From: Halorientalis persicus
GTDB taxonomy: Archaea; Halobacteriota; Halobacteria; Halobacteriales; Haloarculaceae
Assembly: GCF_900110215.1 (NCBI RefSeq)
Contig: NZ_FOCX01000003.1
Span: 124,001 to 188,000, forward strand
Direction of reading: 5' to 3'
DNA: 64,000 bases
Both the position numbers and the translations under genes were made by a program. The notes below the pieces were generated by a model, which did no database searches, was not told the origin of the DNA, and worked only from the letters and a program-made list of their open reading frames with translations. Each line of letters opens with the position of its first letter. Positions within the stretch are counted from its first letter, which is position 1. Shown here piece by piece: positions 14,690 through 35,183 of the stretch.

Positions 14690-15631
14690 ATGCTCGTCCC
14701 CGTCACCATCCGCGAGGTAATGAATCCGACAGTCGAGACGATCAGTCCCGACCTCGACGCCGCCGCGGTCGCCGAGTTGCTCCACGGCGAGGATATCGGC
14801 TCGGTCGTCGTCGTCGAAAATGGCGACCCCGTCGGTATCGTCACCGAATCGGACGTGGTCGGACTCGTCGCCGAGGGGCACGACGCCGACACGGTCACCG
14901 CCGCCGACTGTATGTCGACCCCGGTCGTCACCGTCGACGCCGACGAGTCCATCGAGGCGGCCGTCGACCGCTTCCGCGAACACACGATCAAGAAACTCCC
15001 GGTGATCGACGACAGCGAGGCGCGAAGCGCCTCTGGCAGCCGGACACAGTCCGGCGACGGCGACCTCGTCGGCATCGTCACCACGACCGACCTCTCCTAC
15101 TACCTCCCACACCTCTCCCGGCGGACGACCGCCAGCGGTGGCTCGACCGCCGACCACCACCACCGCGAGCGCGTCGACACCGCCTACGAGCGCGACGAGT
15201 GGGAGTTCGAGAGCCTCGGCCCTCACGACGACCGCATCGAGACTGGCGACGTCGTGAAGTTCACCAAGACCCTCTCCCAGGAAGACGTGGAGACCTTCGC
15301 CGAGGCCAGCGGCGACACCAACCGCCTCCACCTCGACGCCGACTACGCGGAAGGGACCCGCTTCGGTCGCCCCATCGCCCACGGGACACTCGTCGGCGGC
15401 GTCGTCAGCGCCGCGCTGGCCCGCCTGCCCGGCCTCATCGTCTACCTCTCGCAGGACACCTCCTTCCTGGGCCCCGTCGACATCGGCAGCGAAGTCACCG
15501 CCGAGTGTGAGGTCGTCGAGGATCTGGGCAACGACCGCTACCGGCTGACGACCAGCGCCCGCGCCGACGGCGACGAGGTGATCGACGGCGAAGCCGTCGT
15601 CATCGCCGATCCGATCCCCGACACGGCCTGA
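14690..15631 (+). CDS. Tandem CBS domain and MaoC-like hydratase fusion
   Basis: A 313-residue fusion. Residues 1-135 are two CBS motifs (IREVMNPTVETISPD; ADCMSTPVVTVDADESIEAA), a nucleotide-sensing pair. From residue 180 a MaoC hotdog domain follows: AEASGDTNRLHLDADYAEGT carries the catalytic Asp/His pair and RFGRPIAHGTLVGG the rest of the hydratase signature. It probably hydrates enoyl-CoA-like substrates under adenylate control; the control is inference. Residues 110-122 (EARSASGSRTQSG) break the second CBS domain and are coded by a 39-bp double hairpin found almost unchanged at 35094. Start: ATG at 14690; the frame remains open upstream but there covers the nuclease promoter. Confidence 0.85.
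   Translation: MLVPVTIREVMNPTVETISPDLDAAAVAELLHGEDIGSVVVVENGDPVGIVTESDVVGLVAEGHDADTVTAADCMSTPVVTVDADESIEAAVDRFREHTIKKLPVIDDSEARSASGSRTQSGDGDLVGIVTTTDLSYYLPHLSRRTTASGGSTADHHHRERVDTAYERDEWEFESLGPHDDRIETGDVVKFTKTLSQEDVETFAEASGDTNRLHLDADYAEGTRFGRPIAHGTLVGGVVSAALARLPGLIVYLSQDTSFLGPVDIGSEVTAECEVVEDLGNDRYRLTTSARADGDEVIDGEAVVIADPIPDTA
15017..15055. repeat. 39-bp in-frame double-hairpin insertion
   Basis: GAGGCGCGAAGCGCCTC (7-bp perfect arms, loop GAA), spacer TGGCA, then arms GCCGGAC/GTCCGGC with loop ACA. The unit is 13 codons and interrupts the linker of the second CBS domain without breaking the frame. It matches 35094-35132 at 38 of 39 positions; the only difference is in a loop. Confidence 0.75.
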
Positions 15632-15795
15632 CCGTCTTCGGCCGAACGCCGCTCCAGTTTTCCGCCGATCCGTCCCCCGGCTGCCGGAAACGCCCCGCCA
15701 GTTCCTCTCAGTTTGCTACTCCGTGCCGTGAGACGGCTCACCACACCTATCAGATGCAAAGAATTAAGGTCGCCGGTAGTCCTTATACAATCATA

Positions 15796-15927
15796 ATGTA
15801 TTGCCCACAGTGCGGGACACGGATGGCTCTGAACGACGAGACGACAAAGTTGAACGAGTACACCTGCAACACCTGCTACAACACCGAAATCGAGACCAAG
15901 CAGCCGGTCGCCGGCCACGCACTCTGA
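15796..15927 (+). CDS. Small two-knuckle zinc-ribbon protein
   Basis: A 43-residue protein starting MYCPQCGTRMALNDETTK, with two CxxC knuckles, CPQC and CNTC, about 27 residues apart. This is a minimal zinc ribbon of the kind frequent among haloarchaeal small proteins; several such proteins affect motility or biofilm in related species, but no function can be assigned here. An AT-rich GAATTAAG around 15762-15769 lies about 30 bases before the ATG and a second one, TTATAC, is nearer. It stands alone between the CBS-MaoC gene and the convergent nucleoside-recognition gene. Confidence 0.75.
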   Translation: MYCPQCGTRMALNDETTKLNEYTCNTCYNTEIETKQPVAGHAL

Positions 15928-15985
15928 GGGCGACGTTTCTCTCCGTTTTGTACAGTCGAGGAGCGGCCGCGCCGCGTGCCGCCGC

Positions 15986-17014
15986 TCAGATCGCCGTCGG
16001 CGCGAGCAAGACGACCAGCGCCACGGCGATGAACACGACTTTCAGCACCGTGTTGACGACGATCACCTTGCTGCCGAACTCGCGGCCCCAGATGCCGTAC
16101 TGGAAGGGGATCGACCGCTTGAACGTCGAGACGGCGAAGGAGACGATCCCGCCCACGAGCATCGTCGCGACGGCTGCCCGCGCAGTGAAGGTCCCGTTCT
16201 CGATCAGCGGGGCGATGAAGATCGCGCCGTTGGTCGTGTCCACCGCGAACACCGCGATGGTCGGGATCGCCGCGCTCGGCAGGCCCAGCGCGCCCGTGAT
16301 TGGGGCGACCGCGCCCGCGATGCCGAGCGCGTCCGGACTGCCCAGGAGTGCGGTGACGATCTCCTCGTAGTAGGCCACCAGCGTCGCGACGATCAGGTAG
16401 ACGACCAGTAGCCGCGGCACGATGTCTCGGATCTTCTCGACGGTGCTCTCGGCAGCGGCCCGGAATTTGGCGCGGCGGTCACGTCCGCTCCCGCTCCCGT
16501 CGGCCTCGACGGCCGCCCCCTCGTCCACGTCGGCTTCCACCGTGGTATCGACGTTTCGCTCCGAGAGCAGGAGTGCGCCGGCCGCGACGCCGGTTCCGGT
16601 AATCGCGAGCGAGATGAGCGCCCGCGCCCCGACGTACATGAGGCCGACCTTCAGGCCGAGGATGGGGATCAATACGGGCGCGTAGAAGGTGAAGATGTGC
16701 TGGGCGAACCCGAAGAAGGTGTTCATCGTCACCGCGACGAGCGTCGCGCGGTCGTCGAGCAGGCCGGCCTCCCGATATTCGGCGAGCATCCCGTACCCGG
16801 CGGTGGGCGAGGCCGTCGTCGCCAGGATCGCCGTCCCAACCTCCGGTGGGAGGTTCGCCGGCTGTGTCAGTGGTCGTGCGAAACCCGCGATGTACTCGAC
16901 CGCGCCGAACTCGACGGCGACGCTGGCCAGGCCGACCCCCAGAGCGATGAAGACGGTGATCGACGCCACGCGGACCAGCACCTCCACCAGCAACGCCGTC
17001 GGCTCCGGTGCCAT
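15986..17014 (-). CDS. Nucleoside-recognition (Gate) domain membrane protein
   Basis: A 342-residue membrane protein with about eight helices, of the Gate/nucleoside-recognition family related to SpmA/SpmB and concentrative nucleoside transporters. Typical pieces are ATTASPTAGYGMLAEYREAGLL, TMNTFFGFAQHIFTFYAPV and, in the second half, AVFAVDTTNGAIFIAPLI. A charged cytoplasmic loop (about residues 160-190, DVDEGAAVEADGSGSGRDRR) separates the halves. The substrate is unknown. ATG at 17014 is chosen over a TTG 27 bases earlier. It is transcribed in the same direction as the two MgtE-type genes upstream of it. Confidence 0.8.
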   Translation of the reverse strand: MAPEPTALLVEVLVRVASITVFIALGVGLASVAVEFGAVEYIAGFARPLTQPANLPPEVGTAILATTASPTAGYGMLAEYREAGLLDDRATLVAVTMNTFFGFAQHIFTFYAPVLIPILGLKVGLMYVGARALISLAITGTGVAAGALLLSERNVDTTVEADVDEGAAVEADGSGSGRDRRAKFRAAAESTVEKIRDIVPRLLVVYLIVATLVAYYEEIVTALLGSPDALGIAGAVAPITGALGLPSAAIPTIAVFAVDTTNGAIFIAPLIENGTFTARAAVATMLVGGIVSFAVSTFKRSIPFQYGIWGREFGSKVIVVNTVLKVVFIAVALVVLLAPTAI

Positions 17015-17068
17015 TGGCGACCCTTGGTATCTGGTGGCCAAAGCCCTGACTATCCCGTCCGCAGTCCC

Positions 17069-17626
17069 TCAGACCACCAGCCGGACCACGGCGAACAGCA
17101 CCACGACGCCCAGCACGTCACAGACGTTCGTGACGACGGGAATCACCACGTCGTCGGGGTCCAGCCCGAACCGGTAGGCGGCGTAAGTCGTCACCAGCGT
17201 CACGAAAACCGCCAGCACCGCGAGCACCGCGCCGCTCCCGAACGCCACCAGGACGACGGTCCCGATCCCGAGCGCGGTCCCGCCTACGAGCGTCTGGGCC
17301 AGCCACGCCCCGGCCCCGACCAGCGGGAACAGCGTCAGTGCCAGCCCAAGCGTCGCAACGGCGTTGCCCAGCAGGTACTCGTCGTCGGGTTCGAAGGAGA
17401 GCAAGCCGAGGTGGACCACCGTCGAGAGCCGCGCGGCGAGGATGCTCCCGAGGTTGCCCGCCATCCCGATGGTGACGGGCACGAGGACGAGCAGCGAGGG
17501 GTACTGAAGTAAGGTGCCCTCGAAGGTATCGAGGACGAACCCGCTGGCGAGTTCGATACAGGTCAGTACCAACAGGATGGGGAGCATCGTGCGCATGATC
17601 GCTCGGGGGGACCAGCGCGTCTCCAT
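17069..17626 (-). CDS. MgtE-type divalent cation transporter half, second gene
   Basis: A 185-residue protein with five membrane helices matching the MgtE integral membrane domain, including LLVLVPVTIGMAGNLGSILAARLST and the C-terminal DVVIPVVTNVCDVLGVVVLF, where the conserved Asn and Asp residues line the ion path. It lacks the N-terminal and CBS cytoplasmic domains of full MgtE. It overlaps the preceding half-MgtE gene by ATGA, so the two are made together and probably pair into one Mg2+ (or Co2+) channel. Confidence 0.85.
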   Translation of the reverse strand: METRWSPRAIMRTMLPILLVLTCIELASGFVLDTFEGTLLQYPSLLVLVPVTIGMAGNLGSILAARLSTVVHLGLLSFEPDDEYLLGNAVATLGLALTLFPLVGAGAWLAQTLVGGTALGIGTVVLVAFGSGAVLAVLAVFVTLVTTYAAYRFGLDPDDVVIPVVTNVCDVLGVVVLFAVVRLVV

Positions 17627-18204
17627 CAGAGGCCACCCAGTCCGAGGACGATTCGCGTGGCGAGCAGGAGTGTGGCGACGCCGACCACGTCGCCGGTGGT
17701 CGTGACGACCGGGCCCGCGAGCGTGTCTGGGTTGTAGCCGCGGCGATACCCGAGGAAAACGACGCCGACGACCGCCGCCGTGAGCAGGAGCCCCGAGATC
17801 AGCCCGGCGATGCCAGCGATGCCGACGAGCGTCCCGAGGGGTGCGACCTGCCGGCCCAGCACCGCGAGGACGACGAACGCGAGGACCGCGGCGAAGAGGC
17901 TGACGAGAACCCCGTTGGCCAGCGCCGCCGCGATCGCCCCTCGCAACCGCTCGTCGTCCAGATTCAGCCGCGGTTCGATCAGCCCCTGGTGGAGCGCGGA
18001 GGCGAGCCGTGCGCCGAGCGACCCGTAGACGTTTCCGCGGGTCGCCAGCAGGGCGGGAACGAGCATCAGGAGGCCGGGGACCGCCTGCAGCTCCGCCTCC
18101 ATCCCGCCGAGGACGACGCCGGCGAACAGGCCACCTACCCCGCTCACGGCGAGCACCGGGAGCGCCTCGCGGTAGGCCTCGGCGGCGACCTCGCGGACGG
18201 TCAT
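17626..18204 (-). CDS. MgtE-type divalent cation transporter half, first gene
   Basis: A 192-residue membrane protein with five helices, again only the MgtE membrane domain: GLLMLVPALLATRGNVYGSLGARLAS and AGPVVTTTGDVVGVATLLLATRI. It is clearly a paralogue of the next gene (same pore motifs). Start ATG at 18204 (MTVREVAAEAYREALP) begins the domain; the frame is open further upstream but covers surE regulatory DNA. As a tandem of two separate half transporters it likely works as a heterodimer. Confidence 0.85.
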   Translation of the reverse strand: MTVREVAAEAYREALPVLAVSGVGGLFAGVVLGGMEAELQAVPGLLMLVPALLATRGNVYGSLGARLASALHQGLIEPRLNLDDERLRGAIAAALANGVLVSLFAAVLAFVVLAVLGRQVAPLGTLVGIAGIAGLISGLLLTAAVVGVVFLGYRRGYNPDTLAGPVVTTTGDVVGVATLLLATRIVLGLGGL

Positions 18205-18325
18205 TGGCGGGCCAACGAACCCCCGAACCAAAAACCCCGGTAGCCCGACCGATAGCCGTGATGCGTGTGGGCAGGGATCATGGCGGGCCCGAAAGACTGA
18301 CGCGTCGGGGCCCCAACCACAGACC

Positions 18326-19210
18326 GTGACTGCCCCCCACGTGCTGTTGACGAACGACGACGGCATCGACGCCCCCGGGCTGGCGGCGCTGTACGAGGAA
18401 CTGACGGGGGTCGCCGAGGTGACCGTCGTCGCACCGACGGACAACCAGAGTGGGACGGGGCGGACCCGGACCCATCGCACCACCCGCGAGGACCACCCCT
18501 GGGGCTACGCGATCGACGGGACGCCCGCCGACTGCGTGGCCTACGGGGTCGGCGGCCTCGACGCCGACTTCGACCTCGTCGTCGCCGGCTGTAACCACGG
18601 CCCCAACGCCGGCAACTACGTCGTCGGCCGCTCCGGGACGGTGGGTGCCTGCGTCGAAGCCGCCTTCCTCGACATCCCGGGCATCGCCATCTCCGCGTAC
18701 CACGCCCAGGATTTCTTCGTCCACCCGCCCGAGGAGTACGACTTCGGCCGCCCCGCGAAGGTGGCCCGGGAACTGCTCGTCCGGAGCCAGAGCGTCCCGG
18801 TGTTCGAGGAGGCCGACGTGTTGAACGTCAACGCGCCCGTCGACGTGCCCGAGTCCTCGATGCGGCTGACCGAACCCCACCACGACTACGCGGTCGACGT
18901 GGAACACGAGGCCACCGACCGCGACGAGGTCGACATCGGCAAGCCCCGCGAGGGCGACATCGCCATCCGCGACGTGGTCTGGCCCAACACCGTCGGCTGG
19001 GAGAGCCCGTTCCCCGCCGACGAGGACCTCCGGGAGCGCTATCCAGAGGGATCGGATCGGCGCGCCCTCGTCGAGGGCGAGGTCAGCGTCTCGCCGTTGA
19101 CCGCGCCCGCCCTCTCGGTCGAGACTGGGTCGCTCCAGCAGGTCGTCGACGGATACAACGACAGCGAGCGCGCCCGAGAGCGCGCCCACGAGGAACAGCG
19201 CCGCGACTGA
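18326..19210 (+). CDS. surE: 5'/3'-nucleotidase SurE
   Basis: A 294-residue SurE-family phosphatase that removes phosphate from nucleoside monophosphates. The metal site LLTNDDGIDAPGL is at residues 7-19, VAPTDNQSGTG holds the conserved Asn-Gln-Ser, and AGCNHGPNAGNYVVGRSGTV is the second active-site loop. The C-terminal half is acidic. The start is GTG at 18326, nine residues before the first beta strand ends. Compared with bacterial SurE (about 250 residues) it has a longer C-terminus. It stands alone, divergent from the MgtE genes. Confidence 0.9.
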   Translation: MTAPHVLLTNDDGIDAPGLAALYEELTGVAEVTVVAPTDNQSGTGRTRTHRTTREDHPWGYAIDGTPADCVAYGVGGLDADFDLVVAGCNHGPNAGNYVVGRSGTVGACVEAAFLDIPGIAISAYHAQDFFVHPPEEYDFGRPAKVARELLVRSQSVPVFEEADVLNVNAPVDVPESSMRLTEPHHDYAVDVEHEATDRDEVDIGKPREGDIAIRDVVWPNTVGWESPFPADEDLRERYPEGSDRRALVEGEVSVSPLTAPALSVETGSLQQVVDGYNDSERARERAHEEQRRD

Positions 19211-19313
19211 CTGACCCGGGCCGGCCGGTCCAGGCCCCATCGTGCCCGCTCTTATATCGCCCGCCTCACGAGGGAGTTGCTTTACCGGACCGGAGCGGTT
19301 CGTCTCCGATAGC

Positions 19314-19379
19314 ATGATTCGACGGGTAGCAGGGGCCAGTACAGAGTCACGACCGACTGTCGCCGGCGGGGTGGCCTGA
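19314..19379 (+). CDS. Possible 21-residue upstream ORF
   Basis: ATG at 19314 opens a 22-codon frame starting MIRRVAGASTES and ending two bases before the GTG of the alcohol dehydrogenase. A TATA-like GCTTTACCG lies about 31 bases upstream and another, CTTATATCG, at 19251. If the transcript starts near 19312 this would be the first, leaderless reading frame and could set re-initiation on the dehydrogenase gene. It shows no recognisable domain and may be chance. Confidence 0.25.
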   Translation: MIRRVAGASTESRPTVAGGVA

Positions 19380-19381
19380 CC

Positions 19382-20392
19382 GTGCGCGCCGCGCGCTTCC
19401 ACGGTCCCGACGAGGGGCTGGTCGTCGAGGAAGTCCCTCGACCCGAACCGGGGCCCGGCGAGGTGCTGATCGACGTGTCCGCCTGCGGGCTCTGTCACTC
19501 CGATCTCCACCTGATGCACGGCGATTTACCGATTCCGACCCCGCGAACGCTGGGGCACGAGGCCGCCGGCGAGGTCGCGGCGACCGGCCCCGGTGTCGAC
19601 CACCTCGATCCGGGCACGAGCGCCGTCGTCTTCGGCGGCTGGGGCTGTGGCCACTGCGAGGTCTGCACGCGCGGTGACGACCAGCTCTGTAACGTGCTGG
19701 AGTGGGCCGGCATCGGCCAGGACGGCGCGCTCGCGGACTTCGTGGTCGTCCCCGACGCCAAGTACGTCCTGCCGACCGAGATCGACCCCGTCGAGGCCGC
19801 GCCGCTGACCGACGCCGCGCTGACGCCCTACCGGGCGGTCCAGCGCGCCCGCGAACACCTCTCCCCGACCGACACCTTGCTCGTCGTCGGGATCGGCGGC
19901 CTCGGCCAGTTCGGCGTCCAGTTCGCCGCCATGACCGGCGCGCAGGTCGTCGCCGCCGACCAGGACGCCGAGAAACTCGCGCTCGCCGAGGAGTTGGGCG
20001 CGGACGTGACCATCGACGTGACCCAGGAGTCGATCCAGAGTGCGATCCGACGCGTCACGGACGACGGGGCCGACGCCGCCATCGACTTCGTCGGCAAAGA
20101 CGAGACCCTGCAGGCCTGCGGGAACGCGCTGGGCACGCAGGGCCGGCTCTACATCGTCGGCATCGGCGGCGGCTCCTTCGAGCTCTCCTTTAACCCCCTC
20201 GTGGGGAGCGAACTCGTCTGTACGAACGTGTTCTGGGGCAGTATCGACCAGCTTCGGGACGTGCTGGACCTGGCCGAGGCCGGCCGACTCAACGTGGGCG
20301 TCGAGCCCGTCGGCTTCGAGGATCTGGCCGCCACCTACGACCGACTGGAGGACGGCGACGTGGATCGACGGGCCGTTCTCGTGCCGGAGTGA
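19382..20392 (+). CDS. Zinc-dependent NAD(P) alcohol dehydrogenase
   Basis: A 336-residue medium-chain dehydrogenase. The catalytic zinc site is CGLCHSDLH plus GHEAAGEV; the structural zinc lobe is GWGCGHCEVCTRGDDQLCN with four cysteines. The nucleotide-binding fold is LLVVGIGGLGQFGVQFAA followed by an acidic residue after strand 2 (VAADQD), favouring NAD. It oxidises a primary or secondary alcohol, or the reverse; the substrate cannot be told. Starts at GTG 19382. Isolated gene. Confidence 0.9.
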   Translation: MRAARFHGPDEGLVVEEVPRPEPGPGEVLIDVSACGLCHSDLHLMHGDLPIPTPRTLGHEAAGEVAATGPGVDHLDPGTSAVVFGGWGCGHCEVCTRGDDQLCNVLEWAGIGQDGALADFVVVPDAKYVLPTEIDPVEAAPLTDAALTPYRAVQRAREHLSPTDTLLVVGIGGLGQFGVQFAAMTGAQVVAADQDAEKLALAEELGADVTIDVTQESIQSAIRRVTDDGADAAIDFVGKDETLQACGNALGTQGRLYIVGIGGGSFELSFNPLVGSELVCTNVFWGSIDQLRDVLDLAEAGRLNVGVEPVGFEDLAATYDRLEDGDVDRRAVLVPE

Positions 20393-20426
20393 CTGAAATT
20401 AAGTCCCCCGCGGCCGATGGGGTCGT

Positions 20427-20636
20427 ATGGTCGAGACAAACGTCGGCGGCACCGACCGGAAAGGCCGCGCACTGTTGGCGGTCGTCCTGACGGTCGTCGC
20501 CGTCGCCACGCTTCGAAAGGGGAACCGGAAGACTGGACTGCTCGCGGGGATCGGCGCGCTCGCGTTCGGATTCAACGCCACGACCTGTTTCTGTGGGCTG
20601 AACGCGGCGCTCGGCATCGACACGTCCGAGGAGTAG
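20427..20636 (+). CDS. Small DUF2892-like membrane protein
   Basis: A 69-residue protein with two short helices. The pattern NVGGTDRKGRALLAV near the start and CGLNAALGIDTSE at the end matches the YgaP/DUF2892 membrane-domain layout (N-G-x-D-R, then Cys and LGIxT). Function unknown; relatives are fused to rhodanese domains. AAATTAAG lies 27 bases before the ATG. Confidence 0.7.
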   Translation: MVETNVGGTDRKGRALLAVVLTVVAVATLRKGNRKTGLLAGIGALAFGFNATTCFCGLNAALGIDTSEE

Positions 20637-20688
20637 GCCAGAGGAGAGGTCGGTACATTCTTCCGCGTCGGTCCCGCACATCCCGAAC

Positions 20689-20862
20689 ATGACCGAGTTT
20701 ACCGTCAGTGGTCGATGGCAGGCCCGAGATGGGTGGGAATCGTTCGAGAAGACCCTCGACGCCGAAAACGAGGACGTCGCGGTCGAACACACCTACGCCG
20801 AGTTCGGCTCCAAGCACGGCCTCAAGCGCACACAGGTCGAAATCAGTGAGGTGGCCCAATGA
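20689..20862 (+). CDS. rpl18a: 50S ribosomal protein L18Ae/LX
   Basis: A 57-residue protein, MTEFTVSGRWQARDGWESFE at the start, then HTYAEFGSKHGLKRTQVEIS: the archaeal LX (L18Ae) protein at its normal length. It is a large-subunit component. It overlaps pfdA by four bases (ATGA), and pfdA-ftsY follow, the standard archaeal order. In most haloarchaea this gene follows eif6 directly; here the two are 18 kb apart. Confidence 0.93.
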   Translation: MTEFTVSGRWQARDGWESFEKTLDAENEDVAVEHTYAEFGSKHGLKRTQVEISEVAQ

Positions 20863-21329
20863 GCCTCGGTGGCGGCGGTGGCGGCGGCGGCCAGCTCCAG
20901 CAGCTCGCCGAAGAGATCCAGGCTCTCGAAGAGGAGAAGGAAGCCCTCGAAGCCGAGATCGAGGATCTCCAGGCCGAACAGACCGAGATTGACGAGGCCA
21001 TCGAGGCCATCCAGACGCTGGACACGGGCGAGACAGTCCAGGTGCCGCTGGGCGGCGACGCGTACGTCCGCGCCGAGATCCAGGACATCGACGAGATCAT
21101 CGTCTCGCTGGGCGGCGGCTACGCGGCCGAGCGCGACCAGAACGACGCCGTCGACACCCTGGAGAACAAGAAAGACACTCTCGACGACCGGATCGAGGAC
21201 ATCCGCGAGGAGATCAGCGAGGTCGAGGCCGAGAGCGACGAACTCGAGGAGAAGGCTCAGCAGATGCAACAACAGCAGATGCAACAGCAGATGGCCCAGA
21301 TGCAAGAGCAGGAAGGCGGCGACGAGTAA
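20859..21329 (+). CDS. pfdA: Prefoldin subunit alpha
   Basis: A 156-residue protein with the class alpha prefoldin layout: N-terminal coiled coil (about residues 12-45, QQLAEEIQALEEEKEALEAE), a central beta hairpin (VQVPLGGDAYVRAEI and DEIIVSLGGGYAAE), and a C-terminal coiled coil. A Gly run (SLGGGGGGGG) begins the protein and a Gln/Met tail (QQMQQQQMQQQMAQM) ends it. With PfdB it makes the hexameric chaperone that hands unfolded protein to the thermosome. It is coupled to rpl18a and sits six bases before ftsY. Confidence 0.93.
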   Translation: MSLGGGGGGGGQLQQLAEEIQALEEEKEALEAEIEDLQAEQTEIDEAIEAIQTLDTGETVQVPLGGDAYVRAEIQDIDEIIVSLGGGYAAERDQNDAVDTLENKKDTLDDRIEDIREEISEVEAESDELEEKAQQMQQQQMQQQMAQMQEQEGGDE

Positions 21330-21335
21330 GGGGCC

Positions 21336-22481
21336 ATGTTCGACGGACTGAAAGACAAGCTCAACAGCTTCAAAGAGAACGTCGAGGAAGAGGCTGAACC
21401 GGTCGAGGAGGCCGAGGACGCCGACGCCGAGACGGAACCCGCGGACGCCGAGGAACCGGCCGAGGAGACCGAAGCGGCCGAACCCGAGACGGATGCAGAG
21501 CCAGCCGACTCCGAGTCCGAGCCCGAATCCGAGGCCGACGCGGACGACAGCGGGAGCGACCGCGGGCTGATGGAGCGAGCGAAACTCGCAGCCACGGGCA
21601 AGGAGGTCATCGAGGAAGACGACCTCGAAGGCCCGCTCGAAGAGCTGGAGCTGGCCCTGCTCTCCTCGGACGTGGAGATGAGCGTCGCCCAGGAGATCCT
21701 GCGGGGCATCCGTGAGAACCTGATCGGCGAGACGCGCTCGAAGGTCAAGACGACGGGGCTGGTCGTCGAGGAGGCGCTGCGTGACGCGCTGATCGACGTG
21801 ATCAGCGTCGGGCAGTTCGACTTCGAGCAGCGAATCGCCGAGGCCGACAAACCCGTCTCGATCATCTTCACGGGCGTCAACGGCGTCGGGAAGACGACGA
21901 CCATCGCCAAGCTTTCCCAGTGGCTCGACGAGCGGGGCTACTCGACGGTGCTGGCCAACGGCGACACCTACCGGGCCGGCGCGAACGAACAGCTCCAGCA
22001 ACACGCCGACGCCCTGGACGAACGGCTGATCTCTCACGAGCAGGGCTCGGACCCGGCGGCGGTCATCTACGACGCCGTCGAGTACGCCGAGGCCAACGAC
22101 GTGGACGTGGTGCTGGGCGATACGGCCGGTCGGCTCCACACCAGCAACGACCTGATGGACCAACTGGAGAAGATCGACCGCGTGATCGACCCGGACATGA
22201 CGATCTTCGTCGACGAGGCGGTGGCGGGACAGGACGCCGTCAACCGCGCCCGGGAGTTCGACGACGCGGCCGCCATCGACGGCGCGGTCCTCACCAAGGC
22301 CGACGCCGACCCGCAGGGTGGTGCGGCCATCTCGATCGCCCAGGTCACGGGCAAACCGATCCTGTTCCTGGGGACCGGGCAGGACTACGACGACCTCGAA
22401 CCGTTCGATCCCGCGGTCATCGTCGACCGCCTGCTCGGCCACGACGACGAGGAACCGGGGCCCGACGAAGCCGCGGCGTAG
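21336..22481 (+). CDS. ftsY: Signal recognition particle receptor FtsY
   Basis: A 381-residue SRP receptor. Residues 1-75 form a very acidic, low-complexity A domain rich in Glu, Asp and Ala, with a first amphipathic stretch (MFDGLKDKLNSFKENVEE) that may touch the membrane. Then come the N domain and the G domain: GVNGVGKTTTIAKLS (G1), DTYRAGANEQL (G2), DTAGRLHTS (G3), TKADADPQGG (G4). It docks the SRP-ribosome complex at the membrane through GTP-dependent pairing with SRP54, coded at 23818. Follows pfdA by six bases. Confidence 0.95.
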   Translation: MFDGLKDKLNSFKENVEEEAEPVEEAEDADAETEPADAEEPAEETEAAEPETDAEPADSESEPESEADADDSGSDRGLMERAKLAATGKEVIEEDDLEGPLEELELALLSSDVEMSVAQEILRGIRENLIGETRSKVKTTGLVVEEALRDALIDVISVGQFDFEQRIAEADKPVSIIFTGVNGVGKTTTIAKLSQWLDERGYSTVLANGDTYRAGANEQLQQHADALDERLISHEQGSDPAAVIYDAVEYAEANDVDVVLGDTAGRLHTSNDLMDQLEKIDRVIDPDMTIFVDEAVAGQDAVNRAREFDDAAAIDGAVLTKADADPQGGAAISIAQVTGKPILFLGTGQDYDDLEPFDPAVIVDRLLGHDDEEPGPDEAAA

Positions 22482-22495
22482 CTGTCCGTTTCTCT

Positions 22496-25230: not shown

Positions 25231-25668
25231 ATTTTTACTGCGGGGGAGTTTCCTCGCTCGCGTCGCTCGCTGCGGGAACCCCCCTTGCAAAAATTTAGTA
25301 CAAAAACCGCCGGACGCGAGCCACCGGCTCGCGTCCGGTACACAGTGCTGGTGTCTCCGCAACCGCAAGTCGCCCTATCCTTCGAACCCGTCCTCCGCGG
25401 CTCGTCCCTCGCCGCTCCAGTTTGAGGCGCTCACTGCGTTCGCGCCTCCCTACTCCTCGCGGGCCACTCCGTTCCCCGCTCGGATTTCCGGAGACACTCC
25501 CTGCGTCGCCGGCGTGGTCCGGGAGAGCGAAGCTCTCTCGTCCTCACCAGAACGCGGAGCGTTCTGGTTAGCAGCCAGATGCCGACGGCGTCTGGCGACA
25601 TCACGAAAGGCGCTTCGCGCCTTTCGAACGACTTCGCGCCGGCTGCCCGAGGGATCTTCGATCCCTCG
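25226..25668. repeat. Palindrome field after srp54 (element E and six hairpins)
   Basis: No gene is seen in 25231-25682. At 25226-25301 ACTAAATTTTTACTGCGGGG and its inverted end TTGCAAAAATTTAGT form a long imperfect palindrome that includes the srp54 stop. Then come perfect hairpins: 25310-25338 (13-bp arms, loop ACC), 25523-25537 (GAGAGC-GAA-GCTCTC), 25547-25567 (CCAGAACGC arm, loop GGA), 25574-25596 (loop GAC), 25604-25626 (CGAAAGGCGC arm, loop TTC), 25648-25668 (CGAGGGATC arm, loop TTC). The first could end srp54 transcription; the rest look like mobile palindromes. Confidence 0.65.
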
Positions 25669-25682
25669 CTGGTCGTGTCTCC

Positions 25683-27082: not shown

Positions 27083-27187
27083 GTCGCCACGTAGCTCACG
27101 CGGCGGCAAAGCCCTTTTCCTCGACCCGGCTCACAGCCGGGAAGACGTAACAAAGTTGATGCCCGATGCTATCGTAGCCGGCGAACG

Positions 27188-28033: not shown

Positions 28034-28240
28034 CCGCACCGAATCGCCGGTTCGGTGGGCGATCCGGCCGCCCGCTCTTGCTTTCCACCGTAGCTAAAAC
28101 GGTCGTTTGACCTTCCGCTGGCTACATTTAAGTGGGGTCTGTAGTGTGTGGTGCGCCCGCTCGCTTCGGCCCTCCCGAGACCTGACTCGTCTCCGACCCC
28201 CTCTCCGAAGCTCTGGACTCGTTCGGGCGCATCGCCCTTC

Positions 28241-28744
28241 TCAGATCGTAAACGTCTCGAAGACGGTGCCGTCCGGGTCGACCAGTCGGCCCTCGACCGC
28301 GTCGCCGTCGGGTTCCAGTTCCGCGTGGGCCGGCCGGTACCGGCGGGGCTGGGCGTGACTGCCGGGGTTCAGCAGCGTCACGCCGTCGCCCTCGTGGACG
28401 CCGGGGCGGTGGGAGTGGCCGAAGACCACGAGATCGGCGGCTTCCTGCCGACCCAGCAGTGAGAGGGCGGTGTCGGTGTGTTCGTGGCCGTGGACGACCA
28501 CCAGTCGGAGCCCCTCGTGTTCGACCACTCGCTGGGTCGGCAGGCGGTCCCGCACGGCGGGTCGGTCGTTGTTGCCGACGACGCCGTACAGCCGAGAAGC
28601 TTCGGCCTGGAAGGCGTCCAGCACCGACTCGGTCATGAAGTCCCCGGCGTGGACGACGGCGTCGGCCTCGCGGACGGCCTCGCGGGTTCGGCCCGTCAGC
28701 CGGTGGCCCTCGCGGCTGTGCGTGTCGGAGACGACGGTGAGCAT
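28241..28744 (-). CDS. MJ0936/YfcE-type metallophosphoesterase
   Basis: A 167-residue calcineurin-like phosphodiesterase. Metal ligands are visible in the order VSDTHS, VHAGD, VVGNND, VVHGH and FGHSHRPG. Relatives hydrolyse cyclic nucleotides or other phosphodiesters with Mn2+ or Ni2+. Full family length; ATG at 28744 begins the first beta strand. It is divergent from the CDF transporter at 28849. Confidence 0.9.
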   Translation of the reverse strand: MLTVVSDTHSREGHRLTGRTREAVREADAVVHAGDFMTESVLDAFQAEASRLYGVVGNNDRPAVRDRLPTQRVVEHEGLRLVVVHGHEHTDTALSLLGRQEAADLVVFGHSHRPGVHEGDGVTLLNPGSHAQPRRYRPAHAELEPDGDAVEGRLVDPDGTVFETFTI

Positions 28745-28848
28745 GCACGCGCGTACGACGGGGCCGGGTAAACCTCCGACGGATCGCGGTGGTGGGGAAC
28801 TAGTCGGTTCCAGAACAGCTTTGGGTCTGCCGGGGGAGCCGTTCGGTA

Positions 28849-29805
28849 ATGGCAGGCAACAGCAAGGGGGTCGTCATCGCCGCGCTGATCGCCAACGGGG
28901 CGATCGCGATACTGAAATTCTTTGGGTATCTGCTGACGCTCAGCCCGGCGATGCTCTCGGAGACGTATCACTCGATCTCCGACACGGGCAACCAGGTGTT
29001 CCTGCTGATCGGCATCCGCTACGGGGCACAGGACGCCGATCGTCGCCACCCCTTCGGCTACGGGAAGGCGCAGTTTTTCTACAGCTTCCTCGTCTCCGTC
29101 CTCCTCTTTGGCATCGCCGGCTGGGAGTCGGCCAAACACGGCTACGACGCCCTGATGCACGGCACCCACGAGGCCGCTCGCCAGCCGACGATCCCGCTCA
29201 CCGACATCACGCTCACCTTTCCGCCAGTCTACGTCAACTACGCCGTCTTGATCGGGGCCATCGTCTTCGAGACCTACGCGTTCATCAAGGCCCGCAAGGA
29301 ACTCAAGCGTCAGATCGACGTGCACGACTGGAGCGGGTACAAGGAGGCCTTCCGGAAGACCTCCGACGTGACTACCCTCACGGCGTTTACCGAGGACTTC
29401 ATCGCACTCGCGGGCGCGGGCATCGCGCTCTTTGGCATCTACCTCTCGCGGGCGACCGGGAATCCGGTCTTCGACGCGGGCTCGGCGCTCATCATCGGGC
29501 TCATGCTGATGGGCTTTGCCATCGCGCTGGCCTGGGAGAACAAACGACTCCTGCTCGGCGAGAGCATGCCGAAAGACGACGAGGCGGAACTCCGCGACCT
29601 CATCGCCGGCTGGGACGGCGTCGACGAACTCGTCGACTTTCGGACTGTGTACTTCGGGCCGGGTGAGGTGATGGTCGCCACCGAGGTGGCCTTCGCCGAC
29701 TCGCTCACTGCCGACGTGCGCCCTGACGTGATCGACGACATCGAGGCTGCCATCCGCGAGGCCGAACCCCACGCCAACCGGATCTACGTCGAACCGGTCG
29801 ACTGA
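28849..29805 (+). CDS. Cation diffusion facilitator (CDF) family transporter
   Basis: A 318-residue membrane protein of the CDF/ZnT type. The helices include SETYHSISDTGNQVFLLIGI, carrying the conserved His/Asp metal site of helix 2, and RRHPFGYGKAQFFYSF after it; the second metal site is in TAFTEDFIALAGAGIAL. The cytoplasmic C-terminal domain (from about residue 235) has the ferredoxin-like fold seen in YiiP. It exports Zn2+, Mn2+, Fe2+ or a similar ion by proton exchange. A long loop (residues 100-125) between helices 3 and 4 is larger than in bacterial members. Confidence 0.88.
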   Translation: MAGNSKGVVIAALIANGAIAILKFFGYLLTLSPAMLSETYHSISDTGNQVFLLIGIRYGAQDADRRHPFGYGKAQFFYSFLVSVLLFGIAGWESAKHGYDALMHGTHEAARQPTIPLTDITLTFPPVYVNYAVLIGAIVFETYAFIKARKELKRQIDVHDWSGYKEAFRKTSDVTTLTAFTEDFIALAGAGIALFGIYLSRATGNPVFDAGSALIIGLMLMGFAIALAWENKRLLLGESMPKDDEAELRDLIAGWDGVDELVDFRTVYFGPGEVMVATEVAFADSLTADVRPDVIDDIEAAIREAEPHANRIYVEPVD

Positions 29806-29806
29806 G

Positions 29807-31039
29807 CTACCGGAACGCCGCGTACCACGTTTCTGCGTGCATCACTGCGACGACCAGCCGGTCGGCCGTCGGATCGGAGAGCGTCGGACGGAGCGTTTGC
29901 TCGGGGCCGCCGCCAGAACTGTACCTGACCGGTGGCCCGCGGCTGGCGACGGCGACCTTTGCGTCTGTGTCCAGTGAGGTGTTTAGCGGTAGGTAGGTCT
30001 GCAGTGACTCGTTGTAGACGAACACGGCGAGGCCCTGCTCGCTGGCTCCGCCCGGAAGCGCGGCGGAGTCGTAGCCGACCCTGACGGTCGCGTTCGTGAC
30101 CTGCCCCTCGATATCCAGGTCGATCAGCGCTGACGCCCGCGACTCGTCGACGTGGTCGCTCCCGACGACCGCGTCGTTCGTGACGGCCTCGACGCTCGCG
30201 TCCACGTCGGTCCCGGTCACGCGAAACCGCGTGTCGAGGGCCGCGTGTTCGACGACGACCGTCTCCAGGCCGTCCGATTCGGTCGTCCGGAGGTCGGTCA
30301 GCCAGTCGGGCTCGTCGACTGTCGTCTCCCCGACGTTCGAGAGGTCGAACCAGCGCGAGACCAGCAGGCCCTCACCGGGCCGGTCGCTCTCCGGCGGGAC
30401 GTACTCCCCGCTCGTGTAGTTGTGGATCTGGCCGCGCTCGTCCACGACTGCCCGACGATAGGGGAGCGTCTGGTCGGCAGTCTCGTAGTCGTAGCCGGTG
30501 GTGAGGACGTATCGGGTCTCGCCGTCCCGCTGGATCGTGTCCGTCACCGTCAGCGATTCGACACCGACCAGCGCCTGCCGGCCCGTGGGCACCGCGGTCC
30601 GGTTGGGCTGGGCGACCGTCTTCGTCACCGGCCCGTCCTCGAACCGGACGTACTCGCGACCCTCGCGGGCGTACAGCGCCGCGGCCTCGCCGCGGCGCGG
30701 GTGGTACTGGAAGCGTTCGATCTCGAACAGTCCGTCGTCGGCCCGGAGGCGCGTCGAGGCCTGCTCGCGTGCGCCGGAGGCCAGTCCGTAGCCCGACCGG
30801 AACGCGTAGCTCTCGTTCGCCAGCGCGGTCTCGTGGGCCCGCACCAGCGCGGACGCCTCGACCTCCGCGCCGACCGACAGGGTTAGGTTCGTCGTCTCGG
30901 TCGGTTCGCCGTCGCCATTCGCGGGTGTCGCCGTCGGGGTTCCATCCTCGGCCGTCGGTGTCGGGCCGCCCGGGCCGCCCGAACAGCCCGCCAGCGCGAC
31001 CAGCGCCAGACAGCACGCGACCAGCAGTCTCCGGTCCAT
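29807..31039 (-). CDS. Hypothetical haloarchaeal lipoprotein
   Basis: A 410-residue secreted protein with signal peptide and lipobox LAGC (Cys19), a Thr/Pro/Asp-rich linker (about residues 22-55), and a large beta-rich extracellular domain. It has ALVRAHETALANESYAFRSG near the start of that domain, as in a haloarchaeal family of outer-surface lipoproteins of unknown function. No catalytic motif is visible. The stop is one base from the convergent CDF stop. Confidence 0.65.
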   Translation of the reverse strand: MDRRLLVACCLALVALAGCSGGPGGPTPTAEDGTPTATPANGDGEPTETTNLTLSVGAEVEASALVRAHETALANESYAFRSGYGLASGAREQASTRLRADDGLFEIERFQYHPRRGEAAALYAREGREYVRFEDGPVTKTVAQPNRTAVPTGRQALVGVESLTVTDTIQRDGETRYVLTTGYDYETADQTLPYRRAVVDERGQIHNYTSGEYVPPESDRPGEGLLVSRWFDLSNVGETTVDEPDWLTDLRTTESDGLETVVVEHAALDTRFRVTGTDVDASVEAVTNDAVVGSDHVDESRASALIDLDIEGQVTNATVRVGYDSAALPGGASEQGLAVFVYNESLQTYLPLNTSLDTDAKVAVASRGPPVRYSSGGGPEQTLRPTLSDPTADRLVVAVMHAETWYAAFR

Positions 31040-31117
31040 GGACTGTCACAACGAGCACGGGAAAATCAGTGCTGTGGACGGCGAGACTTTTTGTCCGGGA
31101 ACGAACAAGGGGGCAGT

Positions 31118-33319
31118 GTGTCGAGCGACGGAGACGACGCTGGCTACGTCCGGTTTTTCCCCTACGAGGAGCCCTACGACCACCAGCGCGACGCGATGGA
31201 CCGCATCTACGACGCGCTGGGCGAGGGGTCGGACGTGCTCTTCGAGGGGGCGACCGGAACGGGCAAGACCCTGGCCGCGCTGGTGCCGGCCCTGGAGTAC
31301 GCCCGCGAGGAAGACAAGACGGTCGTCATCACGACGAACGTCCACCAGCAGATGCGCCAGTTCGTCCACGAGGCCCGCGCTATCACCGAACAGGAGCCGA
31401 TCCGAGCGGTCGTCTTCCGCGGGAAGGGCTCGATGTGTCACATCGACGTGGGCTACGAGGAGTGTCAGGCGTTGCGGGACACCACCCGCGAAATCGTCGA
31501 CAAAGAGCAGGATCTGGCCGAACTGAACGAACGCGAGGAGACCCTGCTGGCGGACAGTCAGGCCGGGAGCGACGAGGCCGCCGAGGCCCGCGGGGCAGTG
31601 CTGGAGGAACTCGAGGGCGTAGAGGACGAACTCGAAGACCTTCGCGAGACGGGCAACACCTGCGACTACTACTATCAGAACCTCACCGGAAACACGGACG
31701 AGTTCTACCAGTGGTTGTTCGCGGACGTACGCGACCCCGACGACATCTACGAGTACGCCGAGATGGAGGGCTTTTGCGGGTACGAACTCCTCAAGGAGGG
31801 GATGGAGGGCGTCGACCTGGTGGTCTGTAACTACCACCACTTGCTCGATCCGGGCATCCGCGAGCACTTCTTCCGGTGGCTCGGGCGTGACCCCGAGGAC
31901 GTGATCACGGTCTTCGACGAGGCCCACAACGTCGAGGACGCGGCCCGGGACCACGCGACCCGCACACTGACCGAGACCACGCTCGACAGCGCGCTGGACG
32001 AACTGGCCGAACAGGACGACCCCGCGGCCGAGGCCGCACAGAACGTCGTCCGGGCGTTCCGATCCGCACTGGTCGAGACCTACGACGACGCGCTGGGCTT
32101 TGGCGAACGCGAGCGGATCGAGGAGAACTGGGCGGACCTATCAATCACCAACGAGGACGGCCGCGACGATCTGACGATCAACTTCCTGCAGGCCTACACC
32201 GGACCGGGCTACGACGTGGACCTCCAGGCCGCGCTGAAGTTCGGCCGGGCCTTAGACGAGCAGTACGAGGAGGCCTACAAGAACGGCGAGGCCAGCACGC
32301 GACAGGAGTGCCAGACCCTGCAGGCCGTGCAGTTCGTCACCGCCTGGATGGACGAGGGCGACACGCAGGGTCACTACCCGGTCGTGAGCGTCCGCCGGGA
32401 CGAGCAACGCGGCGACGTGTACGGTCGGGCGGAACTCTACCGGTGTATCCCCCAGGAGGTGACCCGCTCGCTGTTCGACGAACTCCACGCCAGCGTCCTG
32501 ATGAGTGCGACCCTGCGCCCCTTCGAGGTCACCGAGGACGTGCTGGGGCTCGACGACCCCGAGACGATGGCCTACGGCGCGCAGTTCCCCGAGGAGCGTC
32601 GGCGGACCTACGCCGTCGAAGCGCCCGCGCTGTTTTCGAGCGAGCGCGACGACCCCGCGGTGCAGAACACCGTGACGGACGTGCTGGAGGACGCCATCAG
32701 GTTCACGCCGGGCAACACGCTCGCGTTCTTCCCGAGCTACAGCGAGGCCGAGCGCTACCACGACCGGGTCCAGGCCGACGCCGAGTGGTTCCTCGATAAA
32801 CCCGCCACGAGCGCCAAAGAGCTCCGCGAAGCGTTTACCGACAGCGAGAACGGCGTCCTCTTCACCTCGCTGTGGGGCACGCTCACTGAAGGAGTGAGCT
32901 TCGACGACGGCGACGCTCGGACGGTGGTCGTCGTGGGCGTGCCCTATCCCCACCTCGACGACCGGATGGACGCCGTACAGGAGGCCTACGACCGGACCTT
33001 CGGCGATGGCGGTGGCGAGTGGATGGGTACGGAGGACGCGGGCTGGGCCTACGCCGTCGAGATTCCGACCGTTCGCAAGACCCGGCAGGCCCTGGGCCGG
33101 GTGGTACGCTCGCCCGAAGATTTCGGCGCGCGCGTGCTGGTGGACAAACGCTACACGATGGTCGGTGAGCAGGAACTGGGTAACTACACGGTCCGGGAGA
33201 CGTTTCCGCCGGAGGAGCGGGCGGAGATGATCGACATCGGCCCCGAGAAGCTGAAGTTCTCGATGCTGAACTTCTACGGCGACATGGACGCCTGGGACGG
33301 GGCGCCGCCGAAACCGTAG
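31118..33319 (+). CDS. XPD/Rad3-family Fe-S DNA helicase
   Basis: A superfamily 2 helicase of about 733 residues. Motif I is FEGATGTGKT, motif II is VFDEAHN, and the C-terminal motifs include MSATLRP, SLWGTLTEGVSF and QALGRVVRSPEDFG (motif VI). Four cysteines lie between motifs I and II (GSMCHID, YEECQAL, NTCDYYY, GFCGYE), the right number and spacing for the XPD 4Fe-4S domain. A Glu-rich coiled insertion (about residues 140-190) separates the second and third cysteines. It likely unwinds DNA 5'-3' in repair. The GTG at 31118 is preferred, with TATA-like CTTTTTG about 30 bases upstream and AGGGGG just before it; a TTG at 31091 is an alternative. Confidence 0.9.
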   Translation: MSSDGDDAGYVRFFPYEEPYDHQRDAMDRIYDALGEGSDVLFEGATGTGKTLAALVPALEYAREEDKTVVITTNVHQQMRQFVHEARAITEQEPIRAVVFRGKGSMCHIDVGYEECQALRDTTREIVDKEQDLAELNEREETLLADSQAGSDEAAEARGAVLEELEGVEDELEDLRETGNTCDYYYQNLTGNTDEFYQWLFADVRDPDDIYEYAEMEGFCGYELLKEGMEGVDLVVCNYHHLLDPGIREHFFRWLGRDPEDVITVFDEAHNVEDAARDHATRTLTETTLDSALDELAEQDDPAAEAAQNVVRAFRSALVETYDDALGFGERERIEENWADLSITNEDGRDDLTINFLQAYTGPGYDVDLQAALKFGRALDEQYEEAYKNGEASTRQECQTLQAVQFVTAWMDEGDTQGHYPVVSVRRDEQRGDVYGRAELYRCIPQEVTRSLFDELHASVLMSATLRPFEVTEDVLGLDDPETMAYGAQFPEERRRTYAVEAPALFSSERDDPAVQNTVTDVLEDAIRFTPGNTLAFFPSYSEAERYHDRVQADAEWFLDKPATSAKELREAFTDSENGVLFTSLWGTLTEGVSFDDGDARTVVVVGVPYPHLDDRMDAVQEAYDRTFGDGGGEWMGTEDAGWAYAVEIPTVRKTRQALGRVVRSPEDFGARVLVDKRYTMVGEQELGNYTVRETFPPEERAEMIDIGPEKLKFSMLNFYGDMDAWDGAPPKP

Positions 33320-33374
33320 TGTGGCGACGAACACGTCGGTTTAATGCTCTCCAGCGTCAAGGTCTCGCAATCGG

Positions 33375-35183
33375 ATGACTGACGACCGTGACGCCGATCG
33401 GGCGCTGTTCGCCGCCGCGCCGGACGGTATGGCCGTGGTGGACCCCGAGACTGGCCAGTTCCGCGACGCGAACGAGCGGTTCTGCGAGTTGCACGGCTAC
33501 GCGCGGTCGTCGCTACTCGACCGCTCCGTCGGCGTGCTCACCGCGTCCGACCGGTCGTCACCCGACGACTTGCTGGATCGGCTCCGGGAGGCGGACGACG
33601 GCGAGCGGTTCGCCTGGCGGACCGAACACGCCGACGGGACGGCGATGCCGGTCGAGGTGGCGGTCGCACGTGTCGGGGACGACGAGCGGTTGCTCGTTCG
33701 CGTGGCCGAACGGACCGACGCCCGGGACCAGCAGGCGGAACTCGACGTGAAGACCCGGGCGATGGACGAGGCCCCGGTCGGGATCACGATCACCGGGCCC
33801 GTCGACGCGGACACCCCGCTGATCTACGTCAACGACGAGTTCCTTGACCTCACGGGCTATGAACGGTCAGAGGTGCTCGGTCGGAACTGCCGGTTTCTGC
33901 AGGGCGAGGGCACGACCGAGGAACCCGTCGCCAGGCTCCGCGAGGCGATCGACGCCGAGGAGCCGGTGACTGTCGAGCTCCGCAACTACCGCCGCGACGG
34001 CGAGCGGTTCTGGAACCGCGTCACCGTCGCGCCCGTCCGGGACGACGGGGTCGTCACTAACTACGTCGGTTTCCAGCAGGACATCACCGAACGCAAGCGA
34101 CAGGAACGCGAACTGGAGCGGTACCGGCGGCTGTTCGACCGGCTTCCGGTCGGCGTCTTCCGGGCCAGAGACGGCGGCGAGGGCGCGTTCGTCGACGCAA
34201 ACGCGGCGCTCGTGTCGATGTTTCGGGCGGAATCGAAAGACGACCTGCTCGGTCGGTCGGTGGACGAACTGTACCTCGACTCCGCGGAACAGACTGCCCT
34301 CGCCGAGCAACTCCGCGAGACCGGCGAAGTCGTCGAGCAGGAGTTGCAGTTCCGCCGACTGGACGGCGAGCGGTTCTGGGGTGCCGTCACCGCCGTGCTG
34401 GTCGAGGAGGGTGACGAGGTCTATCTGGACGGTGTCGTCCACGACATCACGAGACGCAAACGGTACCGCCGCCGCCTCGAAGACCAGCGCGACGGGCTCG
34501 AGATCCTGAACGAGGTCGTCCGGCACGACATCCGGAACGATCTGCAGTTGATAATCGGGCACGCCGAACGCCTCGAAGCGTCTCTCGACGAGGAGGACGT
34601 TCCGGGCCTGTCGGCTATCATCGGGAGCGCCAACAACGCCGTCTCACTCACGCGCACGGCGCGTGTCCTCGCCGAGACGATGCTCCGGACGGACGCGGAG
34701 CCCGAACCCATCGCGCTCCGCCCGCTACTGGAAGACCAGGTCGCGGAGGCCGCATCGGCACACGAGGCGGCGTCGATCTCCGTCGAGGGCGACGTTCCGG
34801 ACGTTCGAGTCCTCGCCGACGAGATGCTCGCGTCCGTGTTCCGGAACCTGCTGAACAACGCGGTCCAGCACAACGACACCGACAGCCCGACGGTGACGGT
34901 GTCGATAACCGAGACGGCCGACCGGGTCCGCGTCCACGTCGCGGACGACGGCCCCGGTGTTCCCGACGACCGCAAGGACACAGTCTTCGGCAAGGGCGAG
35001 AAGGGGCTCGACAGCAACGGGACCGGCATCGGGCTGTACCTGGTCTACACGCTGGTCGACCAGTACGGCGGCGAGGTTCGGATCGACGACCGCGAGGCGC
35101 GAAGCGCCTCTGGCAGCCGGACGCAGTCCGGCGACGCCGACCCGCGGGGTGCCGTGTTCACCGTCGAACTCCCGCTGGCGTAG
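33375..35183 (+). CDS. PAS-LOV-PAS histidine kinase (putative blue-light sensor)
   Basis: A 602-residue soluble sensor kinase. PAS domain 1 is about residues 8-115. The second, about 130-240, is a LOV domain: VNDEFLDLTGYERSEVLGRN, then CRFLQGEGT with the photoactive cysteine at residue 172, and the flavin-contact segments ELRNYRRDGERFWNRVTVAP and TNYVGFQQDITE. A third PAS is about 250-365. The H-box is EVVRHDIRNDLQLI (His384); the ATPase domain has FRNLLNNAVQHN (N box) and ADDGPGVPDD, then NGTGIGLYLV. There is no membrane helix or adjacent response regulator. Residues 574-586, EARSASGSRTQSG, are a 39-bp hairpin insertion in the last loop of the ATPase. TATA-like GTTTAATG lies 31 bases upstream. 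Confidence 0.88.
   Translation: MTDDRDADRALFAAAPDGMAVVDPETGQFRDANERFCELHGYARSSLLDRSVGVLTASDRSSPDDLLDRLREADDGERFAWRTEHADGTAMPVEVAVARVGDDERLLVRVAERTDARDQQAELDVKTRAMDEAPVGITITGPVDADTPLIYVNDEFLDLTGYERSEVLGRNCRFLQGEGTTEEPVARLREAIDAEEPVTVELRNYRRDGERFWNRVTVAPVRDDGVVTNYVGFQQDITERKRQERELERYRRLFDRLPVGVFRARDGGEGAFVDANAALVSMFRAESKDDLLGRSVDELYLDSAEQTALAEQLRETGEVVEQELQFRRLDGERFWGAVTAVLVEEGDEVYLDGVVHDITRRKRYRRRLEDQRDGLEILNEVVRHDIRNDLQLIIGHAERLEASLDEEDVPGLSAIIGSANNAVSLTRTARVLAETMLRTDAEPEPIALRPLLEDQVAEAASAHEAASISVEGDVPDVRVLADEMLASVFRNLLNNAVQHNDTDSPTVTVSITETADRVRVHVADDGPGVPDDRKDTVFGKGEKGLDSNGTGIGLYLVYTLVDQYGGEVRIDDREARSASGSRTQSGDADPRGAVFTVELPLA
35094..35132. repeat. 39-bp in-frame double-hairpin insertion, second copy
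   Basis: Same unit as at 15017-15055: GAGGCGCGAAGCGCCTC, spacer TGGCA, arms GCCGGAC/GTCCGGC with loop GCA instead of ACA. It codes EARSASGSRTQSG near the C-terminus of the LOV kinase. Both copies are preceded by ATCGACGAC plus three bases and followed by GACGSCGACC. Confidence 0.75.

Follow-up and report, generated by a model that had tools for sequence, protein, structure and literature searches.

A probable mobile, translated palindromic element of 45 nucleotides in the Halobacteria

Two copies of a double hairpin and their host genes

Two protein-coding genes in a stretch of the Halorientalis persicus genome (contig NZ_FOCX01000003.1, positions 124,001 to 188,000; the whole stretch analyzed, 64,000 nucleotides long, is referred to here as the window) carry a short double hairpin in the same reading frame. 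The first gene, at 14735..15631 on the plus strand (start codon picked by homology), encodes a CBS-MaoC protein and the second, at 33375..35183 on the same strand, a PAS/LOV histidine kinase. A first-pass annotation had pointed to 39-bp double hairpins in these two unrelated proteins; both are present, at 15017-15055 and 35094-35132, agreeing at 38 of 39 bases with a sole mismatch (ACA versus GCA) in the second loop, both read EARSASGSRTQSG, and many other unrelated genes are hit as well. The annotation was right that the frame contains no stop, but the unit is longer than the 13 codons it proposed, comprising 45 nucleotides (nt) at 15014-15058 and 35091-35135; each 39-mer is thereby extended by the triplet before GAG (AGC, or CGC in the second copy) and by a closing GAC. 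These boundaries follow from head-to-tail arrays without spacer (loci L155, L158, L167, L185, and L274) and from the 45-nt spacing of units in genomes. The likeness of the flanks that had been remarked upon comes from two GAC triplets, one the target and the other the end of the element, together with loop codons rich in Asp/Gly.

The unit can be written as AGC-HP1-TGGCA-HP2-GAC, in which each hairpin (HP) has a 7-bp stem and a 3-nt loop. Copy 1 (15014..15058, plus strand) lies inside the second CBS domain, encodes SEARSASGSRTQSGD, and is directly preceded by the target triplet GAC, an Asp codon (15011..15013, plus strand). Its first hairpin, GAGGCGC-GAA-GCGCCTC (15017..15033), is joined by TGGCA (15034..15038), which conforms to a conserved NNGCA linker, to the second, GCCGGAC-ACA-GTCCGGC (15039..15055), all on the plus strand. 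Copy 2 (35091..35135, plus strand) encodes REARSASGSRTQSGD in the C-terminal loop of the HATPase, with hairpin 1 at 35094..35110 and hairpin 2, GCCGGAC-GCA-GTCCGGC, at 35116..35132, again on the plus strand. The hairpins are stable whether as RNA or DNA, and the 45-mer folded as single-stranded DNA scores 4 standard deviations better than its own shuffles.

When CBS-MaoC homologues were sought with a query from which the insert had been removed, exactly 45 extra nt were found between LPVxDD and GDLVGI in three species of one genus, while no matching insert was present in 22 homologues, of which two or three have unrelated longer loops. Homologues of the kinase read VED-NDPEGAVF at the site of insertion, and in a homologue from a further species of the genus this loop is occupied by a different subtype (L263). 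Comparison of the ribosomal protein uL2 of Halomicrobium katesii with the solved Haloarcula marismortui protein (1s72) gives a single 15-residue gap, VEFED-[SEGQSPSGSRTQSGD]-GDRRL, and DnaK, for which an empty site is likewise seen in comparison, carries a 48-nt variant. The alignment of empty orthologues that had been suggested as a check thus yields a clean 45-nt insertion, but no 3-bp target duplication. Unrelated host genes number in the dozens; besides uL2 and DnaK, those recognized through Pfam include aconitase (two sites), mercuric reductase, PEP synthase, PolX, CobN, M32 peptidase, molybdopterin oxidoreductase, metallo-beta-lactamase-fold proteins, histidine kinases, DUF7095, and leucyl-tRNA synthetase (tandem). 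Judged by homologues and domain positions, the inserts appear to lie in surface loops.

Distribution, pairing and reading frame

A search of the genome and its relatives, also proposed by the first-pass annotation, uncovered further copies in H. persicus and a family that extends across the Halobacteria. In the window's own genome, pattern searches located a third, near-identical copy in another CBS-domain protein (G000:C44:52451) and a more diverged fourth (C51:296938). An exact pattern in which hairpin 1 was largely unconstrained had 35 matches in 84,980 species genomes, all of them in Halobacteria and spread over many genera, and all on the same strand and in the same frame within an open frame, although gene support is weak for two (L078 is intergenic by context and L057 lies in an apparent gene fragment). 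A covariance model built from 15 copies recovers the two window copies at E-values of 3e-19 and 1e-18, and finds ten matches altogether in the window's own genome. Of the order's 392 genomes, 320 contain at least one match to the model; a sample drawn from across the phylum gave matches for 26 of the 33 members of the order and for none of the 163 genomes outside it. The copy-richest genomes hold about 40-90 copies, and deeper scoring gives up to 88, 79, and 64 matches per genome. Scanning 2.1 Mb, both strands counted, with an independent grammar made up of hairpin, NNGNA linker, hairpin, and GAC returned 181 hits against 5 in a reversed-sequence control; 119 of the 147 non-redundant hits are 45 nt long, and removal by hand of off-length chance matches left 138 for the counts of targets and ends. 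No Rfam family matches the element, and no solved chain in the PDB contains the peptide, the matches being designed ankyrins of chance similarity. No viral contig matched TCNGGCAGNCGGACNCAGTCCG, so there is no evidence for viral carriage. No paper on this element or on its peptide or DNA strings was found in the literature searched, subscription papers lying outside its scope. The family is large and apparently undescribed in Halobacteria.

Covariation in the stems confirms the double hairpin. Among 59 diverse copies, 98.5% of cells are paired, a figure inflated by the structural scan's own demand for paired stems; 134 cells are changed on both sides against 36 in shuffles, none of 500 shuffles reaches 134, and such double changes affect 10 of the 14 pairs. 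One stem pair occurs as AU 21, CG 17, GC 16, and UA 3 times. In the 35 pattern hits, for which hairpin-1 pairing was not demanded, all seven pairs are formed in 26 and six pairs in another seven, with the inner pairs varying between CG, GC, and AT. Because of these compensatory changes residues 3 and 6 of the peptide co-vary (A-A, E-S, G-P, V-T), which indicates that it is the DNA or RNA structure, rather than the peptide, that is conserved.

Frame use is exclusive in copies within genes. An earlier codon model could not distinguish the sense frame from the exact antisense and was replaced by six frame models, trained on non-overlapping genes, which called 44 of 53 held-out windows correctly and placed seven in antisense phase 0. 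Of the 63 copies of 45 nt that have coding flanks to left and right, 61 lie in sense and on a codon boundary; the remaining two are discordant on one flank only, which is within the error rate of the model. Targeting of GAC alone would lead to an expected share of 45% (P about 3e-19). Extragenic DNA also contains copies, some with units identical to intragenic ones, yet lengths not divisible by three occur in 0/65 intragenic versus 14/35 extragenic copies and in-frame stops in 0/63 versus 9/20: intragenic units measure 45, 48, or 51 nt, and extragenic ones often 47 or 49 nt, or contain TAG. The commonest unit is open in all six frames, of which only the used one, with the pattern S/R-E-x-R/Q-S-x-S-G-S-R-T-Q-S-G/D-D, is hydrophilic (two hydrophobic residues versus 5-10). 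The simplest cause of this bias would be selection against insertions that damage proteins, which in turn implies that the insert is translated; intragenic copies would then add 15 residues to host proteins that apparently still work.

Tandem units of different subtypes were observed within a leucyl-tRNA synthetase gene (L253, G056:C1:1214933-1215031), and tandem units also occur at the N-box of two histidine kinases (L279, G166:C1, ~166486-166629, and L266, G243:C1, ~143114). In both kinases hairpin 1, GTGGAAC-ACG-GTTCCAC, encodes SVEHGST, the residues of the native NSVEHG motif, in two or three repeats, and element and host motif may here be tuned to each other.

Insertion target, age and mode of spread

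The unit directly follows a C in 85 of 87 first copies within genes, against a background of 53% C at third positions, and in 30 of 33 others; GAC is the target triplet in 61 of the 87, compared with 8.5% of codons. At the targets TTC, ATC, AAC, AGC, and GGC the right end of the unit is still GAC; since GAC is then present solely at the right end, there is no 3-bp target duplication, and duplication of the single C (1 bp) is possible. Terminal inverted repeats are lacking. The terminal GAC recreates the best target, which accounts for tandem arrays at 45-nt spacing in which subtypes are mixed, such as GAGGCGC, GAGGGAC, and GAGCCGC in succession at L274. Six extragenic copies (L177, L265, L271, L272, L283, and L284) lie inside the right-end hairpin loop of IS605/PATE-like remnants, two belonging to the window's own genome (contigs C109 and C64); these insertions follow GTAAAC or GTGAAC, in the layout TGACATCCTCC..CGTAAAC, the element, and GGCG..TTCC. 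IS605/PATE ends excepted, a hairpin in the empty target is not a general rule, being found at just 11 of 138 sites and mostly weak.

The near identity of the window copies had been taken to imply recent spread, a conclusion that the data do not establish: the same subtype is present at orthologous sites in several genera, where the element differs by only 4-19% and the 4-fold sites of the host by 30-53%. In several genera copies occupy the sites in DUF309, DUF302, uL2, RNase J-like, and PolX genes, from which it follows that many insertions are old or repeatedly replaced, and some sites (DUF7095, RNase J-like) carry different subtypes by lineage. Near identity thus also reflects constraint or repeated replacement.

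On this evidence the 45-nt sequence is probably a non-autonomous mobile, translated palindromic element of Halobacteria, a REP/PATE-like analogue of the Rickettsia palindromic elements. As in IS200/IS605-type (Y1) transposition or REP mobilization, it would enter as single-stranded hairpin DNA on the 3' side of a short target, would leave no target duplication, and could stack in tandem on the target recreated at its own end. Only insertions that keep to a multiple of three, are read without a stop, and add the hydrophilic frame to a tolerant loop would survive, such that selfish DNA is rendered harmless by its own coding frame with no evident benefit to the host protein. The Y1-type step, considered alone, is put forward tentatively. 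Several points count against this account as a whole. Mobility is argued from comparison across species and translation from frame use, and the sites filled in several genera mean that many insertions are old or repeatedly replaced. No Y1_Tnp (PF01797) hit was obtained in two nearly complete, copy-rich genomes (G071 with 40 copies and G109 with 48), while several copy-free genomes do have Y1_Tnp, as do most other carriers. Presence of a Y1 transposase thus does not track copy number, and it was rejected as a simple cause.

As to how the element moves, a trans-acting resident Y1 transposase of the IS200/IS605 or RAYT type, working on a minimal PATE/REP that consists of two terminal hairpins fused together, is a possibility to which we give slightly less than even credence. 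It would account for the two hairpins, insertion 3' of a short target without 3-bp duplication, a right end equal to the target, and nesting in IS605/PATE ends, and 52-bp terminal-only PATEs, possibly mobile, are known in Haloquadratum (PMC3119063). Set against it are the copy-rich genomes that lack Y1_Tnp and the copy-free ones that have it; furthermore, no insertion sequence bearing these exact ends was found, though the ends were not searched systematically. IS605-type elements and PATEs of Haloquadratum show strain-specific insertions even though every IS200-type gene in one strain is a pseudogene (PMC3119063). Spread without a transposase, by ectopic template switching or gene conversion between hairpins during replication or repair and with replacement of subtypes at old sites, would suit both the copy-rich genomes devoid of Y1 transposase and the different subtypes held at one site by different lineages (DUF7095, RNase J-like), but the sharp 45-nt boundaries between empty and filled sites and the strict C target point to an enzyme that recognizes ends, and we regard this route as unlikely. 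A little less doubtful, yet still speculative, is a broader proposal: that order-wide, self-targeting, protein-tolerated mobile hairpins move without a Y1 transposase, by an unknown enzyme or a replication-linked route, and regularly remodel conserved proteins, among them uL2, DnaK, and leucyl-tRNA synthetase, with tandem stacking and subtype exchange serving as a source of ready-made 15-residue loops.

Other explanations fit the data far less well. The presence of GAC on both sides, in the window and in most copies, would suggest a classical DDE-type miniature inverted-repeat transposable element (MITE) of 42 nt with a 3-bp GAC target duplication; the right end remains GAC even with targets TTC, ATC, AAC, GGC, and AGC, and terminal inverted repeats are absent, making this highly improbable. 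Hairpins that are stable as RNA as well as DNA, and their presence in the essential genes for uL2, DnaK, and leucyl-tRNA synthetase, might be explained by an element that is spliced out or, as with mitochondrial byp elements, bypassed by the ribosome and so never translated. Such removal needs neither an exclusive frame nor the multiples of three and freedom from stops that intragenic copies always show and extragenic ones do not, and it is considered very unlikely. That some sites are common to several genera could also reflect an ancestral protein segment, or a convergent low-complexity linker, with no insertion at all, which is next to untenable given the unrelated hosts, the empty orthologues, the paired nonsynonymous changes that keep the stems, and the identical extragenic units. 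The claim that a palindromic element has inserted in frame is supported by empty orthologous sites, stem covariation, many unrelated hosts, and an exclusive frame.

Diverged relatives and other repeats were noted alongside the family. Within the window, the intergenic region between ffh/SRP54 and an aminopeptidase gene (25520-25680) holds an array of several perfect 9-10 bp hairpins that look like nested diverged relatives of the element; it includes a longer-stemmed extragenic relative at 25540..25602 (plus strand; weak model match, E 0.0044) and a second at 25630..25676 (minus strand; weak model match, E 0.00047), which reads AGC-GAGGGATC-GAA-GATCCCTC-GGGCAGCC. An intergenic repeat of ~300 nt, apparently of Halorubrum (L144, L161, L013, L078, L155-L158, L180, and L261), has the unit at its center, as one to three tandem copies in either orientation, followed by GAGGCTGGGGAGGCGTGAGG, and ends near CTTTGGAGGTGTTC. 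Elsewhere in the window, at 45710-46125, an open reading frame's 3' end (GGAGAANCGGATGCACGCCCAGAACGG...TGGCTTGGTGAGCAAGCGTAGC) plus a hairpin is repeated in three imperfect tandem copies, 153-154 nt apart.

A compact 45-nt family extends over an archaeal order of hundreds of genomes; its ends are defined, it follows a target rule, it forms tandem arrays, and it has entered the ribosome and DnaK. Annotation is affected too, as haloarchaeal protein phylogenies and structure models include these inserts unrecognized. Its hosts include culturable Halorubrum, Halomicrobium, and Halorientalis, so that tolerance of the peptide, the mobilizing enzyme, and the rate of gain are open to direct testing.

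Comparison with known systems

Protein-coding mobile palindromes are known from Rickettsia and a few other bacteria, and as far as the literature searched shows this is the first in archaea. Rickettsia palindromic elements (RPEs, including RPE-4 and RPE-6) are palindromic repeats that occupy many unrelated genes in frame, with function retained, and occur outside genes as well (PMC10969869, PMC3733652). Their citation as precedent by the first-pass annotation was apt in kind, in that an in-frame palindrome occupies unrelated genes whose orthologues lack it; the likeness, which extends to extragenic insertion, is one of description. Unlike RPEs, the element is archaeal, measures 45 nt versus the roughly 150 bp of the first RPE family, and is always a double 7-bp/3-nt hairpin; it further differs in its single frame, strict C target, tandem stacking, and order-wide spread.

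PATEs (palindrome-associated transposable elements) are haloarchaeal, lack terminal inverted repeats, have palindromes near both ends, cause no target duplication, cannot accommodate a gene in their short length, and include 52-bp terminal-only forms (PMC3119063). The element is likewise haloarchaeal, has palindromes near both ends, lacks terminal inverted repeats and a 3-bp target duplication, and is too short for a transposase gene. It differs in residing mainly in coding sequence and in one frame. PATE palindromes resemble IS605 ends, and the 45-mer itself sits inserted within such ends. SMR-A, a small mobile repeat of Haloquadratum, also targets IS605/PATE hairpins without target duplication (PMC3119063), as do the six nested copies, but is ~110 bp long with terminal inverted repeats, against 45-51 nt in genes and no such repeats here. 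REPs tagged with GTAG or CGTC, and REP doublets, are short hairpins of high copy number with occasional in-frame intragenic copies, and the CGTC families lack a dedicated transposase (PMC3733652). The opposite strand of the element starts GTC-stem-TGCCA, comparable to CGTC-stem-CCA; the definition of CGTC REPs nevertheless does not fit, as these have stems of 8-9 bp with A-T as the first two pairs and loops of 4-5 nt, in contrast to G+C-rich 7-bp stems without two A-T pairs at their start and 3-nt loops, and the fixed unit of two hairpins also sets the element apart. Taken together, the element appears RPE-like in its action, resembling also the rare intragenic REPs of bacteria (PMC3733652, PMC10969869), and in its anatomy probably stands near the PATEs.

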